Translations under genes and position numbers: made by a program | Shown: positions 28,197-35,994 of the stretch, in pieces | Layout of the letters: every line of letters begins with the position of its first letter | Numbering within the stretch: position 1 is the stretch's first letter | Notes under the pieces: model-generated | Told to the model about the DNA's origin: nothing | The model's input: only the letters and a program-made list of their open reading frames with translations | Databases searched by the model: none | Source: Oligoflexia bacterium | GTDB taxonomy: Bacteria; Bdellovibrionota; Bacteriovoracia; Bacteriovoracales; Bacteriovoracaceae | Direction of reading: 5' to 3' | Assembly (NCBI GenBank): GCA_015231955.1 | Contig: JADGAN010000047.1 | Span: 1-39,239 of the forward strand | Length of the DNA stretch: 39,239 nt

Positions 28197-28646
28197 CTAC
28201 TTTTCTGCTTTAAGAATAAAGAGCGTCAGCCTGGCAATGGCAAAAAGTTCCTGTTTTTGGTTAGTAAGTTTAATTTCAAAAATATGGGTACTCTTTCCAA
28301 TATGGCAGGCACTGGCCGTGGCATAGGCATGGTCGCCGACGATCAGTGGTCTAATGTGGTTGATATTTAACTCTAATCCCACAGGGGATTCTTTGGCCAG
28401 ATCTTCTATCACTAAAGCAGAGGCCACAGAGGCCACACTTTCTGCTAAGAGCGCACTGACACCGCCATGAAGAGCGCCACCTGGTCGAGTATGCTCTTTG
28501 CCTACCTCCATTGTAGCAGTGAGCTCAGTATCACTAATGGCGATGAAACGAAGCTTAAGATATTGTAAGGCACCTTTGCTGGCATAGTTTTGGTTTAAGT
28601 AAGTAAGCGCTTGTTCTTGTCGTTGGTTATATTTTTTCAAGGGCAT
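28197..28646 (-). CDS. Hotdog-fold thioesterase (PaaI/YbgC-like)
   Basis: 149 aa. The key block is GGALHGGVSALLAESVASVA, with the HGG-x-x-x-x-x-x-E/D catalytic pattern of the PaaI hotdog thioesterases, followed by NINHIRPLIVGDHAYATAS and the last strand ARLTLFIL. It hydrolyses acyl-CoA, probably aromatic or other small acyl groups; the substrate is not evident. Its start is five bases after the stop of the large hybrid kinase, so it is the final gene of the phosphorelay operon, although the function looks unrelated. It converges with pirin. Confidence 0.9.
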   Translation of the reverse strand: MPLKKYNQRQEQALTYLNQNYASKGALQYLKLRFIAISDTELTATMEVGKEHTRPGGALHGGVSALLAESVASVASALVIEDLAKESPVGLELNINHIRPLIVGDHAYATASACHIGKSTHIFEIKLTNQKQELFAIARLTLFILKAEK

Positions 28647-28651
28647 AAGTA

Positions 28652-31600
28652 TTAACAGGCCTTTTCTAGAGGAACAGTTAGTTTTAAAATCTCTTGCAAA
28701 AGATCATTCTTCTTAATCGGTTTTGCAAGGTACGATGTGCAACCAGCGGCAACACATTTTTCATACTCTCCCTTCATGGCATGAGCAGTGAGTGCAATAA
28801 TAGGAGTTGCTTTTTTGTTCATCGCCTTTTCATGGAGGCGGATCTCCTGGGTTGCGGTGAGTCCATCCATGATGGGCATTTGTACATCCATTAAGATGAG
28901 GTCGTAGGGTTTGGATTTTGCCATCTCAAGTGCGTTAGCGCCATTTTCTGCCACATCGATGGTGTAAGGAAGCTTTTTAAAAAAGATTTTAATGAGGTTG
29001 CGATTGTCTTCACTATCATCGACTAGTAATATTGTCAGGGGGATGCTGCTTGCCATATTCTCTACATTTTGGGGAGCAGTGCTCGCTTTATTTATAGGGA
29101 GCAGAGAGGAGCTCTCTTTAAAAGGAATGGTAAAGGAGAAGGTCGAGCCTTTTCCCTCTTCGCCGCTGGAGAAAAGAGTAATCGTACCACCCATCAGTTC
29201 TGTTAATTTTTTGGAAATGTAAAGCCCTAGTCCAAACCCTTCATATTTACGTGTGACAGTTGCATCAATTTGACCAAAACGGGAGAAAAGCTCCGCTTGC
29301 TTTTCTAAGGGAATACCCATTCCACTATCGATGACAGAAATGGTAATAAAATTGCTGTCACTCTTCGCAGAGATCTTGATAAAACCTTGATGAGTAAATT
29401 TAATAGCGTTGTTGATAAGGTTGATAAGAATCTGTTTGATGCGAAATTGATCACCGATGAGGGGATGACTTAGTATGGGATCGATTTCTACCTCTAGTTT
29501 TAAGTGTTTGGCCTTGATCTTGGTAAAGAGCATCGTGGTAACTTCGTCCAAGAGAGCAGCAAGATTAAAGGGGGCAACTTCAATATCAAGTACACCTATC
29601 TCCATCTTGGAAACTTCTAGCGTGTTGTTGAGAAGAGTGAGCAGTGTATCTCCCGATTTTAAAATGGTGTGTAAATGTAACTGCTGTTCGCTATTTAAAT
29701 TGCTTGTCAGCAACACCTCGGTAAGTCCTAAGATGGAGTTGAGTGGGGTGCGGATCTCATGACTAATATTGGAGAAAAATTCTGTCTTGGTGATGTTGGC
29801 ACGAATCGCCTCTTCGCGACTTTTTTCAAGAGATTGGATAAACTTTTGCCGTTCAACAATTTTCCAAACCGCATCCATGAGCAGGGTGAGTTGTCTAGCA
29901 TCGGAAAAGTTATAAGCTTCTATTTTATTGCCGACACCAATAACTGCTGTCACTTTATTATCAATAATCACAGGAAGTGAAAGCATACGCTTAATTTGTA
30001 AATGATCGCTAGGATACTTTCTTGGTAAGCGTTTAGAGTCTTCTAAGAAATTGTTATAGATGATGGTATCACGTTTAGCTACCACATCTTTCCAATGGCC
30101 AACAGAGGCCATGGCATTGAGATCATTACGTTCAAGAACTGCACACTCGTTTAAAACATTTTTGGACCAGGAGCAGATTTGAAAACTGTTTTTATTCTCA
30201 TCATAGAGGTAGATAAAACCCACTTCACTGCTAGTTAGTCGAATGGCCTCTTCTAAGGTGAAGTCAAAAAGCTCTTGAGAAGATTTAGATTTTTGCTGGC
30301 CGATGTGTAAAATACTCTCTAACCTTGCTTCGTTGAGACCATTTTCCTCCTCCATGCGTTTATTAAGAGTGATGTTTTCTATCGCTCCAATATAGCAATC
30401 GACTTTTTGTAAAACATTCCTAACACTATTGATAGTGATTTTAAGCCAGAGTGGATCGCCATTTTTCCTCAGGAATTTTTTTTCAGTGATAAAAGTATCC
30501 CCATGAATTTCGCGAATTAAAGGAACCAGAGAGCTTGCAGTTAGGCACTGTAGAGTATGGAAAAAACCACAATTTCCTAGTGTACAAGTGTTGCACTCAA
30601 GGATTGCTTGGAAGGCGGGATTGGTCATTTTAATGGTGCCATCGGCGGATGCCAAGAGCATGCCCATTGTAGCGTTATTGAAGATAAGTCCCAATTTCCT
30701 TTCCTGTTCTTGGAGGTCATTTTCAATCTGTTTATAGGAGGAGATATCTTCTAACATTGTTGCTAGTAATAGTTCATCAATCTCACTGATCCACTCCCCA
30801 CGATGCTTAATCCAAGTATAGCGACCATCGTGTTTTTTGATTAGATACTGAAGCTCAATATTTTTTTTATGGAGAAAAGAGTTAAAGAAGGCATCATCAA
30901 CCACCTCTTTAAACATGGGATGGACAAGATGGAGGAACTCCTTATGGTTTTTTGCAAACTCTTGAGTCGTGTACCCTAATATCAGGGGAAGTGGCCCTTT
31001 TATTTCAACCAACGTACCCTTTTTATCATAGTAGAGAGCAACTTGTTTAGAAGCACTGATAATCGATTCAATCTTGCTGGTGGTGAGGATAATATGCTTT
31101 TGGAGATCGTGATTTCTCAGTTTAAAGACAAAATAGGCAAGTAAGAGTGCAAAGAGCAAACAGAGTGAAAGCAAAGGAGTTACTGTTTTTGAAAGGATGA
31201 TGTTTTTAATTTTAGGATAATCGTATTCGGCAATAAAGTAAGCGACACCCACCCCATGAAAAGTGATAGGAGTCGATAAAAAAGGAGTGAAATGCTGATT
31301 GATGAACTTGGTAATCGGCAGGAAGTTGCCTGATTTTAACGTTGTAGTAAATTTTTGTGATAAGGGATAGATATCAGTAGAGGCAATCTCGTTAAAGTGA
31401 AGATCGGTAATATAAAAATGGTTATAGTGTTCATTAGCGACTTTAAGAAGCATCAGCTCTTGCTCTAGGGAGTTTAGTGCCTGCTGCTCTCCTTTTTGTG
31501 CTAACTCTAGTGCTGGTTTGGGAATTAGATCGGCAAAATCAATCGTGCGGTTTTGTAAAGATTTGATGAATTCCATATAATAGGAGGAGAGATGCCAATG

Positions 31601-32260
31601 GGTAATGGCGATACCACTAAAGTAGAGTAGGGCGAATCCTATGACAAAGTAGCGCTCAGGATGGATGCTAAAGTATTGCTTCCATAGTATGTGAACAATA
31701 GAGAGTATAACAAGAGATTGTAATATGTCTAGTGAGCTTGAGAGCAGGTCTCCACTTATGCTATAAGCAGGGATAGAGAGGGGTTCTAGTAAAATGGTAA
31801 GTGAGAGTAGTAAGGCAAGAGGTGTGGAAGAGCGCTTCAGCGCTAAAAAAGCGAGTCCAGCAACCACGAAAGTTGCAGGGACAAGTGCATAATGGGGAGA
31901 GCGAAAAAAAAGTAGCAGTGAAAATATAATAATGATGGGGTAGATAATAAAACTAAGCAGCGATTGTTTAAAGAGTTTTTTTCGTGCATATTCGGTGATG
32001 ATGAAAAAAGAGGTGGTTTGAAAGAGGAAATGAAGTGTGACTATAGGGGAAGTATGGCCATCACTGGCAAAGATAAACTCTAAAAAAAGGTGTGCAGCGT
32101 GCATGAGAGAAAAAAAGGAGATACCGCCCCAGGGGAGATAAATTTTTTGTTTACTATCTTCGCTAGAGAGTAAAAAGGTAATGGCCGAAAGTATCAGCAG
32201 TGCGATCCCGTGAAGGAAAGAGATATAGATGTTGATTGAGGATAAGAAGACTTCATTCAT
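28652..32260 (-). CDS. Large hybrid histidine kinase (membrane sensor, 2 PAS, GAF, HisKA, HATPase, REC)
   Basis: 1202 aa. Several N-terminal helices lie in residues 10-230, then an extracytoplasmic segment (about 230-360) and another helix near 361-382 (LLSLCLLFALLLAYFVFKL). PAS1 is about 395-510 and PAS2 about 520-650. GAF (about 665-810) contains RMLSLPVIIDNKVTAVIGVG. HisKA has H834 in NISHEIRTPLNSILGL, and the HATPase has VIDSGMGIPLEKQAELFSRF and FGLGLYISKKL. The receiver has D1125 in LILMDVQMPIMDG. PAS2 carries a Cys cluster, C556-x2-C559-x4-C564-x7-C572. There is no Hpt domain; a separate Hpt protein heads the operon. AAGGG precedes the ATG by eight bases. Confidence 0.94.
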   Translation of the reverse strand: MNEVFLSSINIYISFLHGIALLILSAITFLLSSEDSKQKIYLPWGGISFFSLMHAAHLFLEFIFASDGHTSPIVTLHFLFQTTSFFIITEYARKKLFKQSLLSFIIYPIIIIFSLLLFFRSPHYALVPATFVVAGLAFLALKRSSTPLALLLSLTILLEPLSIPAYSISGDLLSSSLDILQSLVILSIVHILWKQYFSIHPERYFVIGFALLYFSGIAITHWHLSSYYMEFIKSLQNRTIDFADLIPKPALELAQKGEQQALNSLEQELMLLKVANEHYNHFYITDLHFNEIASTDIYPLSQKFTTTLKSGNFLPITKFINQHFTPFLSTPITFHGVGVAYFIAEYDYPKIKNIILSKTVTPLLSLCLLFALLLAYFVFKLRNHDLQKHIILTTSKIESIISASKQVALYYDKKGTLVEIKGPLPLILGYTTQEFAKNHKEFLHLVHPMFKEVVDDAFFNSFLHKKNIELQYLIKKHDGRYTWIKHRGEWISEIDELLLATMLEDISSYKQIENDLQEQERKLGLIFNNATMGMLLASADGTIKMTNPAFQAILECNTCTLGNCGFFHTLQCLTASSLVPLIREIHGDTFITEKKFLRKNGDPLWLKITINSVRNVLQKVDCYIGAIENITLNKRMEEENGLNEARLESILHIGQQKSKSSQELFDFTLEEAIRLTSSEVGFIYLYDENKNSFQICSWSKNVLNECAVLERNDLNAMASVGHWKDVVAKRDTIIYNNFLEDSKRLPRKYPSDHLQIKRMLSLPVIIDNKVTAVIGVGNKIEAYNFSDARQLTLLMDAVWKIVERQKFIQSLEKSREEAIRANITKTEFFSNISHEIRTPLNSILGLTEVLLTSNLNSEQQLHLHTILKSGDTLLTLLNNTLEVSKMEIGVLDIEVAPFNLAALLDEVTTMLFTKIKAKHLKLEVEIDPILSHPLIGDQFRIKQILINLINNAIKFTHQGFIKISAKSDSNFITISVIDSGMGIPLEKQAELFSRFGQIDATVTRKYEGFGLGLYISKKLTELMGGTITLFSSGEEGKGSTFSFTIPFKESSSLLPINKASTAPQNVENMASSIPLTILLVDDSEDNRNLIKIFFKKLPYTIDVAENGANALEMAKSKPYDLILMDVQMPIMDGLTATQEIRLHEKAMNKKATPIIALTAHAMKGEYEKCVAAGCTSYLAKPIKKNDLLQEILKLTVPLEKAC

Positions 32261-32294
32261 GAAGTTTACCCTTGGTTACGGTTACGCTCAGTGG

Positions 32295-33011
32295 TTATGG
32301 TGTGTTTTTATTGGCAATCCAGGAGCGAATGTAGTTTTGGATTTTAGGATCATCGTTGTCAAATTCTAAGAATAGCTCATATTGATCAGGAGCAGAGATA
32401 GAGACATCGGAAACGTGTAAATTTAATTGGGAGGTTTTTCCGGTGATCTCTTTTAAAATGGCCCCATCGATATTGACGTAGCTGCCTTTGGCAATATAGA
32501 AGGGTGCTTTAAGGGTGATACCATCCTCTGAAACTTTAGAAACTGTTAGAGGAAGTGAGATGGAGCTTTGAGAGAGGTCACTGGGAACTCGGACAAAATC
32601 TTGATCGACATCTTCATTTTTGATATGCAGAAAGTGGCAGATTTTATTTTGAAAGATAAAATCATCTAAGGGTTTAGAGAGATAATCGCTAGCACCAATA
32701 TCTAAGGCCCCGATGATATATTTTAGATCTCTAAATTTGGAAAAAATGATCAGTGGAATGGTGCTTTCATGTTTTAGGCGAAGCAATTTAATGAGCTTAT
32801 GGCCACCAATGTTATATTTTCCTATTTGCAAGTCAATAAGGCAAAGATCGGGATTTTCACTTTCAAAGAGGTTTAGAAAAAGTTTGGGATCAGTGGTGAT
32901 GGAGAAGGTGAGGGGCAACTTTTGAAGTGCTCTTTGCAAAATGTAGTTGAATTCACTATCATCATCCAAGGTTAAAACATGAGGAATGAATTTTCCATTA
33001 ACTCTTTTCAT
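32295..33011 (-). CDS. Response regulator with PilZ-like C-terminal domain (second copy)
   Basis: 238 aa from the ATG at 33009-33011 (MKRVNGKF); the frame is open to 33164 but those 51 codons overlap the preceding gene. The receiver is VLTLDDDSEFNYILQRALQ, with phosphorylatable D60 in LCLIDLQIGKYN and the Lys switch in ASDYLSKPLDD. Residues about 145-238 are beta strands (GITLKAPFYIAKGSYVNIDG, LFLEFDNDDPKIQNYIRSWI) resembling PilZ, but the c-di-GMP signatures RxxxR and DxSxxG are absent. It overlaps the upstream regulator by 14 bases, with GGAG near the start. It is probably an output or sink of the relay. Confidence 0.85.
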   Translation of the reverse strand: MKRVNGKFIPHVLTLDDDSEFNYILQRALQKLPLTFSITTDPKLFLNLFESENPDLCLIDLQIGKYNIGGHKLIKLLRLKHESTIPLIIFSKFRDLKYIIGALDIGASDYLSKPLDDFIFQNKICHFLHIKNEDVDQDFVRVPSDLSQSSISLPLTVSKVSEDGITLKAPFYIAKGSYVNIDGAILKEITGKTSQLNLHVSDVSISAPDQYELFLEFDNDDPKIQNYIRSWIANKNTP

Positions 33012-33699
33012 TGGCACTCCATTGGTTTCGAAGGGTGCGAATCGTTTGGGCAGAGGCCTCGGAAAGGCCAAGGATGGTGCAAATAGTATCGTATTCACCA
33101 ATACTAACATAGCGTCCAATCTCAGCGGTTTGCACACTATCACAAGGAATATCATACTTTCCAAAGAGGTTGCTTGAAATCGCTATCTTCTGTGCCATAT
33201 TGAATTTGATCGCTGCTCGGAGCACACAAGAGGTTTCATTAATTTTAATGAGGTTGACCTCTGTTGAAAGAACAGCAGAAGGAAGCTTGTCTGGAGGAAA
33301 GTTGTAGCTAATCATCACATCGTTTAAGAGTGTCTTCCGAATTTTTTGAATTAAAATAGTTTGTTTGATGGGTTTAGCAACAAAGGCCGCGGCCCCTAAT
33401 TCGCTGACTTCGGTAATGGTTTCCTTATAGCTAAAAGCAGAGCAAACAATAATGGGAATGTTGGCAAATTGACTTCTATTTTGCTGCTGGAGTTCAATAA
33501 ACAAGCGGCCGTTTTCATTTCGCAAATTTAAATCTAAAATAATCAAGTGGGGAGTATGCTTCTTAAGCAACTCTAGCGATTCGGAAATGGAGGCAACTTC
33601 ATAGGAGATAATTCCTATCCCAGCAAGAATTTTTTTTAAAATCGATCGAAAGTCGGGATCATCATCGATAATTAAACAAGTTTTACCTTTGAGTGACAT
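32998..33699 (-). CDS. Response regulator with PilZ-like C-terminal domain (first copy)
   Basis: 233 aa. The receiver is CLIIDDDPDFRSILKKILAG, with acceptor D56 in LIILDLNLRNENG, the switch Ser in VCSAFSYKE and the Lys in AAFVAKPIKQ. The C-terminal part (about 130-225) has strands LIKINETSCVLRAAIKFNMA and a closing ICTILGLSEASAQTIRTLRN. It parallels the second copy, so the pair looks like an ancient tandem duplication that has diverged. No DNA-binding helix-turn-helix is seen. AAGGAG is 11 bases before the ATG. The gene follows the Hpt gene by 35 bases. Confidence 0.85.
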   Translation of the reverse strand: MSLKGKTCLIIDDDPDFRSILKKILAGIGIISYEVASISESLELLKKHTPHLIILDLNLRNENGRLFIELQQQNRSQFANIPIIVCSAFSYKETITEVSELGAAAFVAKPIKQTILIQKIRKTLLNDVMISYNFPPDKLPSAVLSTEVNLIKINETSCVLRAAIKFNMAQKIAISSNLFGKYDIPCDSVQTAEIGRYVSIGEYDTICTILGLSEASAQTIRTLRNQWSANEKS

Positions 33700-33734
33700 G
33701 AGTACATATTCTCCTTACCGGTGGTATCGCATGT

Positions 33735-34043
33735 TTATTTAAAAGCGATAACAATGGTGGAAAGATAGGTGGAAATTTGCTCTTTTAATTTTATTATATT
33801 GCTACTATCGCTCATTTTTGCAAATGATTCAATTTTTGTACCGATCTCCCCAAGTTCCGGGTGACCGTAACTTTCTGCATTTCCTGCAAGCTTATGTCCA
33901 ATCACTGCAATTTCTGCAAAATTTTTTTCCTGCAAATATTTTTCAAGCAGTAAGAGATCTTTATGACGATTCTCTAAGAAAACTGGAGTTATTTCCTCTA
34001 GATCTTTGTCGATATAAATGGTTTTTTTTGTTGTTATACTCAT
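33735..34043 (-). CDS. Hpt (histidine phosphotransfer) protein
   Basis: 102 aa made of one four-helix Hpt domain. The phosphoryl-carrier is H50 in IGHKLAGNAESYGHPELGEI, the usual xHxLKGxxxxxG core with LAG in place of LKG. It heads the operon Hpt, REC-PilZ, REC-PilZ, hybrid kinase, thioesterase. It is the piece the hybrid kinase lacks, so the likely path is H834, D1125, H50, then the receivers D56 and D60. GGAGGG is five bases before the ATG. The upstream spacer, shared with a divergent barrel gene, contains a run of 14 A at 34093-34106. Confidence 0.9.
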   Translation of the reverse strand: MSITTKKTIYIDKDLEEITPVFLENRHKDLLLLEKYLQEKNFAEIAVIGHKLAGNAESYGHPELGEIGTKIESFAKMSDSSNIIKLKEQISTYLSTIVIAFK

Positions 34044-34794: not shown

Positions 34795-35994
34795 TTAATT
34801 TTTGTCACTTAAGGATTTTTTGTAAAGTTTTTTCAGCTCCTTAAAGAGAGGAGACTTGCTCATATCTCCAGCTTCTCGCGTCCATATAAAATCGGGATAG
34901 TTGGCACTAATCCACCTGCCACCAATAATCTCATCATCTTTATTCAACTCTAAAATGTATTGATACTTGGTGATGTGTCTCATCTTATTTTCAAAGACCC
35001 CATTAACCGGAATGGTGTAAGCTCCAATTTCTCCCGTCCACTCTACATCACTTTCGATGGTCACTTCTTTAACCGTAGCTGCTGCTCGCTTAGCGGGAGC
35101 ACTGGCCGCAGTAATTTTCTCCTGCTTAAGCACTTTGGAGCTGTAACCTTGGACTGGTTGGTTCCAAACCGGCTGATCGGTGGTACGATCGAAGATAAAT
35201 CCGGTACTGCGCTTTCCAATCAAGTTGGCCAAAATAATATGAAAAGTTCCAGCGTTGACATCATTATTTTCACTTTCAGGACGGCCACTAGTGGTAAATG
35301 ATTTATTGTCAAAGGTGTCCTCACAGCGTGTTCCTACAAAACAACGTTTTGCATCGGGATCGCAGGCCTCACCTTGATAGTAGGTTAGCAGTGCTTTAAT
35401 ATCGGAAGAGAAAAATTTAATAACAAGACCATCCTTATTCTCCACACTGGTACAACCTGGTTCTTCAAAATTTAAAGCTGCCGGGGCCCAACCATGACAA
35501 AGACCAAACCACTCACTGCCCTCTGGGTTATCTACAACATCGCGTGTACGTTCAATTTCAGATTTGGTGAGAGTATAATTATAATCGCCACGATAAAGAT
35601 CCCACTTCTCCGCGGGAGATAAACTTTCGATCTCTTGTCGTGACATCTTTTTCAAATCTGCAAGCGAAGTTTTTAGATCACTTGCTTTAACAATTTTTTC
35701 TTTATCACTTAAGCTATTATCACTCCAGCGATTAGCAATTCCGCCTTCATAGGTGGGCCAATAAGTGTCTGTCCAAGGCATCTTATCTTTATCAAGCTTT
35801 CCCGCAAGAGGTAGGTCTGTAAAGTTGCTTTTCAGGTTTTTACCCGTAAACAGTGAGGTAAACCAATGTGCCCCGACTTCAGACATTTTTTGTGGATCGT
35901 TGCGAGCATTCCACTCTTCTGCAAAAAGACTAGAGGATAAGAGTAAAAGCGTGACGGTTAGCAATGACTTTTTTTGCCGGTGAAATTGAAACAT
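34795..35994 (-). CDS. Secreted transglutaminase-elicitor-family protein
   Basis: 399 aa. Signal region KKSLLTVTLLLLSSSLFAEE. The block EWFGLCHGWAPAALNFEEPG holds the catalytic Cys (C166), NDVNAGTFHIILANLIGKRS holds the His (H252) and GFIFDRTTDQPVWNQPV holds the Asp (D269 or D273). From memory this order and the GLCHGWAPAA core are those of TGase_elicitor (PF16683), the family of the oomycete GP42 transglutaminase, with bacterial homologues in marine species. It would cross-link Gln and Lys side chains outside the cell. Extra Cys (C181, C211, C218, C224) fit an exported protein. GGAGG precedes the ATG. It might modify host or prey surface, or the cell's own envelope; not tested. Confidence 0.8.
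   Translation of the reverse strand: MFQFHRQKKSLLTVTLLLLSSSLFAEEWNARNDPQKMSEVGAHWFTSLFTGKNLKSNFTDLPLAGKLDKDKMPWTDTYWPTYEGGIANRWSDNSLSDKEKIVKASDLKTSLADLKKMSRQEIESLSPAEKWDLYRGDYNYTLTKSEIERTRDVVDNPEGSEWFGLCHGWAPAALNFEEPGCTSVENKDGLVIKFFSSDIKALLTYYQGEACDPDAKRCFVGTRCEDTFDNKSFTTSGRPESENNDVNAGTFHIILANLIGKRSTGFIFDRTTDQPVWNQPVQGYSSKVLKQEKITAASAPAKRAAATVKEVTIESDVEWTGEIGAYTIPVNGVFENKMRHITKYQYILELNKDDEIIGGRWISANYPDFIWTREAGDMSKSPLFKELKKLYKKSLSDKN

Follow-up and report, generated by a model that had tools for sequence, protein, structure and literature searches.

Hpt-REC1-REC2, an apparently undescribed signalling module with paired PilZ-like response regulators in an Oligoflexia bacterium

Described PilZ regulators and phosphorelays

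PilZ is the textbook receptor of c-di-GMP, and phosphorelays of the ArcB, RcsD and LuxU type have DNA-binding or sigma-54 regulators as their outputs. The locus analyzed here follows the same logic of hybrid kinase, Hpt and response regulator as these relays but differs from them in its outputs, which are two paired PilZ-like proteins (REC1 and REC2). The response regulator PixA of M. xanthus consists of a PilZ and a receiver domain, and c-di-GMP binding is not needed for its role in motility (PMC8316039). PilZ is the only other domain of this response regulator, as the PilZ-like tail is in REC1 and REC2, and PixA acts on motility without binding DNA (PMC8316039). However, in PixA the PilZ domain precedes the receiver, the c-di-GMP residues are kept and c-di-GMP is bound, whereas in REC1 and REC2 the receiver comes first and the motifs are lost. 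In addition, PixA is a single orphan gene with no kinase or Hpt nearby, in contrast to the two paralogues and the Hpt found here. The type IV pilus protein PilZ (the PilZ-PilB-FimX system of Pseudomonas and Xanthomonas) binds PilB and not c-di-GMP (PMC11656802). Unlike what we predict for REC1 and REC2, it has no receiver domain and is not controlled by phosphorylation. A literature search, with subscription papers mostly outside its coverage, found no paper on an architecture that joins an Hpt to paired REC-PilZ-like proteins, and Hpt-REC1-REC2, whose genes keep together in many related bacteria, is a real signalling module that apparently had not been described.

The relay genes and their conservation

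The window, i.e. the whole stretch of DNA analyzed, comprises 39,239 nt of an Oligoflexia bacterium (assembly GCA_015231955.1, contig JADGAN010000047.1), and the cluster lies at positions 28197-34043. It forms a head-to-tail run of five genes on the minus strand, in the order Hpt, REC1, REC2, hybrid kinase and hotdog thioesterase (Table 1). The preliminary description had named the first 4 genes, and their open reading frames and phosphorylation residues are all as it claimed; the thioesterase gene escaped it, although the span that it gave takes this gene in. Hpt and REC1 are separated by 35 bp, REC1 and REC2 overlap by 14 bp, and the gaps between REC2 and the kinase and between the kinase and the thioesterase are 34 bp and 5 bp, respectively. 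Judged from this spacing, the 5 genes are likely a single transcript. Promoter and terminator scans of the cluster gave signals no higher than those in shuffles. The thioesterase, a PaaI/MenI-like protein, closes the co-oriented run right behind the kinase, and no connection between thioesterase and relay was seen in relatives. Elsewhere in the window (34795-35994), a 399-aa protein matches the Pfam transglutaminase elicitor family (9e-49).

Table 1. Genes of the relay cluster and their positions in the window
Feature	Position	Strand	Details
Hpt protein, stand-alone	33735..34043	-	102 aa, phospho-acceptor H50
REC1: receiver (~1-125, D56) and PilZ-like tail (~130-233)	32998..33699	-	233 aa
REC2: receiver (~9-130, D60) and PilZ-like tail (~145-238)	32295..33011	-	238 aa, ATG at 33011
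Hybrid histidine kinase	28652..32260	-	1202 aa, H834, D1125, without Hpt
Hotdog-fold acyl-CoA thioesterase	28197..28646	-	149 aa; PF03061 1.6e-14; TIGR00369 1.5e-24

The window Hpt matches the Pfam Hpt family (PF01627) at 6.2e-5, with a score (23.6 bits) that is 1 bit under the cut-off of 24.6. The 32 orthologues of this protein all match the same family at E<=0.01, and H50 and G54 are invariant in the 32 of them. Structure matches of the Hpt profile include the Hpt domains of ArcB and RcsD (yojN) and LuxU. By its helical-bundle profile and its phospho-accepting histidine, the protein belongs to the Hpt family. REC1 and REC2 match Response_reg (4.3e-20 and 2.9e-16, respectively), and this was the only Pfam domain above cut-off in either regulator, which bears out the earlier claim that both lack an HTH. 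Both contain the acidic triad, the phospho-Asp, the Ser/Thr and the Lys that characterize receivers (PF00072). In REC1, D12-D13-D14, D56, S/T87 and K109 are kept in 35/35 sequences; in REC2, D60 is kept in 38/39 and K113 in 39/39. The conservation of these residues suggests that both receivers should accept phosphate. The kinase contains two PAS domains, a GAF domain, HisKA, HATPase_c and a terminal REC according to Pfam, and thus has in one chain the domains of a hybrid histidine kinase; as previously proposed, it has no Hpt of its own. H834 is located in an NISHEIRTP motif and D1125 in an LILMDVQMP motif. The N-terminus is hydrophobic, with 5 hydrophobic segments in residues 1-193 and another one at 353-383.

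To follow this set in relatives, 129 genomes of the class were searched with each tail alone, and 40 regions were fetched and annotated. REC1 and REC2 were found in tandem at almost every locus with a match, and most genomes searched with the single tails yielded one tail of each kind. A separate Hpt accompanied the REC1-REC2 pair in 32 of the 39 loci of relatives, to which L134 and L150, with the Hpt within the adjacent kinase, are additional. Because the set recurs in relatives, the arrangement of Hpt, REC1 and REC2 is not due to chance. The kinase is downstream of the set in the window, as in L161; it is upstream and co-oriented in L150-L152, and divergent and of another type in approximately 10 loci; none was visible nearby in at least 10. 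The expectation that all 4 genes keep together was thus correct for Hpt, REC1 and REC2 and failed for the kinase: what is conserved is the trio Hpt-REC1-REC2, to which the kinase does not constantly belong. A scan of the genome contigs with REC1 returned receiver-only relatives, with a tail relative at E<=0.01 in 0/79 loci.

Several neighbours of the set were also recorded. Next to it in 17 loci (e.g., L148:8861-10210 and L129:4072-5412) is a family of REC-like plus HD-GYP-like proteins of approximately 450 aa, often encoded by a back-to-back pair of genes. These proteins retain the H/HD/HH residues and have the GYP replaced (GxGF), and many of them show weak or no Pfam matches. The best solved match of the family is Bd1817 (1.2e-12), described as a catalytically inactive HD-GYP protein that lacks the GYP tyrosine (PMC4159591). 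The window genome encodes approximately 8 close full-length relatives and further partial ones, all away from the cluster. In part of family f1, this protein and a divergent third regulator adjoin the set; the latter was considered as another PilZ-like protein and rejected, being an OmpR-type DNA-binding regulator. Right behind REC2 in another locus (L184:6263-7735), a 490-aa protein contains a further REC and tail and is apparently a third copy. A chemotaxis (Che) output was also considered and discarded, since CheW was not matched in genus g14, which does have the Hpt-REC1-REC2 set; flagellin, being almost universal in the class, is uninformative. One genome (G000 C50:18709-20175) encodes a 516-aa protein with three tandem CheW domains.

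Ancestry of the tails and c-di-GMP motifs

The tails of REC1 and REC2 (tail1 and tail2) are homologous at the profile level (hhalign 96.9%, E 1.7e-10), while aligning the two sequences directly gives little signal (21% identity, z = 2.5) and would have been no safe basis for the diverged duplication that the preliminary description proposed and that the profiles and the tree bear out. In a tree of 98 proteins whose root was not fixed, REC1 (42 rows, SH-aLRT 94), REC2 (46 rows, 98) and a single-copy set (10 rows, 98) each make up one side of a branch. REC1/REC2 pairs were found in families f1, f10, f23, f25 and f26, and the split therefore predates these families; on this phylogeny the duplication is judged to be ancient. 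REC1 and REC2 distances correlate with r = 0.89 over 31 loci and at 0.71-0.72 with those of Hpt, values that in part reflect shared ancestry.

The single-copy proteins came from a search of the phylum with the tail2 profile, which gave matches in 148 of 369 genomes. Many of the matches outside the family of the window are single genes of approximately 230 aa with the same layout, and form a sister set. A kinase and/or an Hpt is a near neighbour in 29/29 of these loci, 15 of which are ordered REC-tail, CheY, kinase, Hpt; the loci of family f3 mostly consist of a hybrid kinase gene with a single REC-tail gene behind it. The cluster of REC-PilZ-like protein, CheY, membrane kinase of approximately 450 aa and Hpt occurs in many families of the phylum (L195:4611-7570, L239, L242, L246, L255 and others), usually with an FAD-oxidase-like gene behind it. 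This conserved gene of the single-copy clusters, of approximately 460 aa, does not look signalling-like from its sequence and is read as an FAD-dependent oxidase in plain synteny.

These sister proteins link the tails to PilZ. Pfam did not match PilZ (PF07238) in the REC1 and REC2 of the window at E<=1 or in 74 family rows of REC1/REC2 at 0.1, searching the tails against Pfam and NCBIfam revealed only REC, and a PDB sequence search with the tail profiles gave no significant match. Compared alone with PilZ, tail1 reached a non-significant 2% probability. However, a 13-row profile of the sister tails, which took in three REC2 tails from other families, recovered tail1 with 98.8% and tail2 with 99.3% probability, and for the sister-clade tails the match to PilZ domains reached 70-77% (E 2e-5 to 4e-5). 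Across the sister-clade, combined-tail and tail2 profiles, the probabilities against PilZ were 38-85%, compared with 0.2-0.3% for the reversed-PilZ control. One sister-clade member (L195) passes the Pfam PilZ cut-off at its tail (25.1 vs 22.5 bits), and four more of the 20 members tested match PilZ weakly at the same position. We conclude from these bridging homologues that the tails are related to PilZ by descent, transitively through tail1, tail2, the sister clade and PilZ, in support of the PilZ-like assignment made earlier. AlphaFold2 models of REC1 (mean pLDDT 91.8, pTM 0.63) and REC2 (mean pLDDT 91.6, pTM 0.74) were of high pLDDT in the tails as well. Each tail is built of beta strands interrupted by a short helix and closes with a C-terminal helix, an arrangement expected for PilZ. 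In a PDB structure search with the whole REC2 model, the matches listed were filled by the receiver domain and not by the tail.

In a different interpretation, the similarity to PilZ is superficial and the tails are some other small beta-barrel or beta-sandwich domain. The failure of every member of the REC1/REC2 set to match Pfam PilZ and the result with tail1 alone would agree with this, but the 5/20 sister-clade members that match PilZ at the tail, one of them above the curated cut-off, and the separation of three profiles from the reversed control make it very unlikely. If the tails do derive from PilZ, they could still sense c-di-GMP or another nucleotide through a different set of residues, and integrate phosphate and nucleotide signals. 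Such a role would fit their ancestry, the REC plus HD-GYP-like gene beside the set in several relatives and the precedent of PixA, which combines PilZ with a receiver and binds c-di-GMP (PMC8316039). However, RxxxR followed by (D/N)xSxxG, the motifs whose absence from the 2 window proteins had been pointed out before, occur together in 0/78 tails; among PilZ domains taken from these and related genomes, 30/34 have both. The loss thus extends to the whole family, and Bd1817, the best solved match of the neighbouring protein, is itself reported to be inactive (PMC4159591). We therefore regard nucleotide sensing as improbable. The loss of both motifs speaks against c-di-GMP binding by the tails, and REC1 and REC2 should be considered PilZ-like proteins and not be filed as c-di-GMP receptors.

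The same weighing applies to the input of the set. The adjacent kinase might not be its natural partner, in which case the Hpt would be a hub that receives phosphate from several hybrid kinases encoded far away, and the kinase beside it would be a chance or secondary neighbour. That the type and position of the kinase vary, that many relatives have none nearby, and that the window genome has 61 HisKA matches (next to 23 Hpt matches) all favour a hub. On the other hand, L161 shares the gene order of the window (Hpt-REC1-REC2-hybrid kinase), co-oriented kinases lie upstream of the set in L150-L152, and the kinase of the window, having no Hpt of its own, needs one. On balance, this reading of the Hpt as a hub seems to us less likely than not.

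Proposed phosphoflow and its meaning

Altogether, the phosphorelay proposed in the preliminary description is supported, and we consider it probable that the locus encodes a multistep relay with two phospho-switched PilZ-like outputs that act through protein contacts and not through DNA or c-di-GMP; the preliminary description had put these contacts as a necessity, which is too strong. In this model, the membrane hybrid kinase of the window, as the presumed partner of the set, would autophosphorylate on H834 and pass the phosphate to D1125 of its own receiver. The stand-alone Hpt would take it up on H50 and in turn phosphorylate D56 of REC1 and D60 of REC2. The first of these steps are proposed because they follow established phosphorelay logic and the residues that they require are present. 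Phosphorylation would then switch both PilZ-like tails, which would bind partner proteins; the likeliest targets, by analogy only, would be components of the cell-surface or motility machinery, for example type IV pili or polarity proteins. Hpt, REC1 and REC2 would constitute the core of the system and the kinases its interchangeable inputs.

A more tentative extension, which we put forward as a possibility on the doubtful side, concerns the phylum as a whole: it may have a class of response regulators in which PilZ stopped being a c-di-GMP receptor and became a protein adaptor driven by phosphorylation. In one lineage a duplication may then have produced REC1 and REC2 as an obligate pair that depends on a single Hpt and on interchangeable kinases, joined in some relatives by degenerate HD-GYP proteins. 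If this is true, two proteins of c-di-GMP ancestry would work without the nucleotide. Because the searches with single tails mostly gave one tail of either kind per genome, the effects of deletions and Asp substitutions should be easy to interpret. An old and conserved PilZ-like output that has lost its binding motifs and is coupled to a phosphorelay would offer a clean way to study how PilZ domains act by contact alone, and Hpt-REC1-REC2 is a candidate for a shared input hub in what are probably Bdellovibrio-like bacteria.
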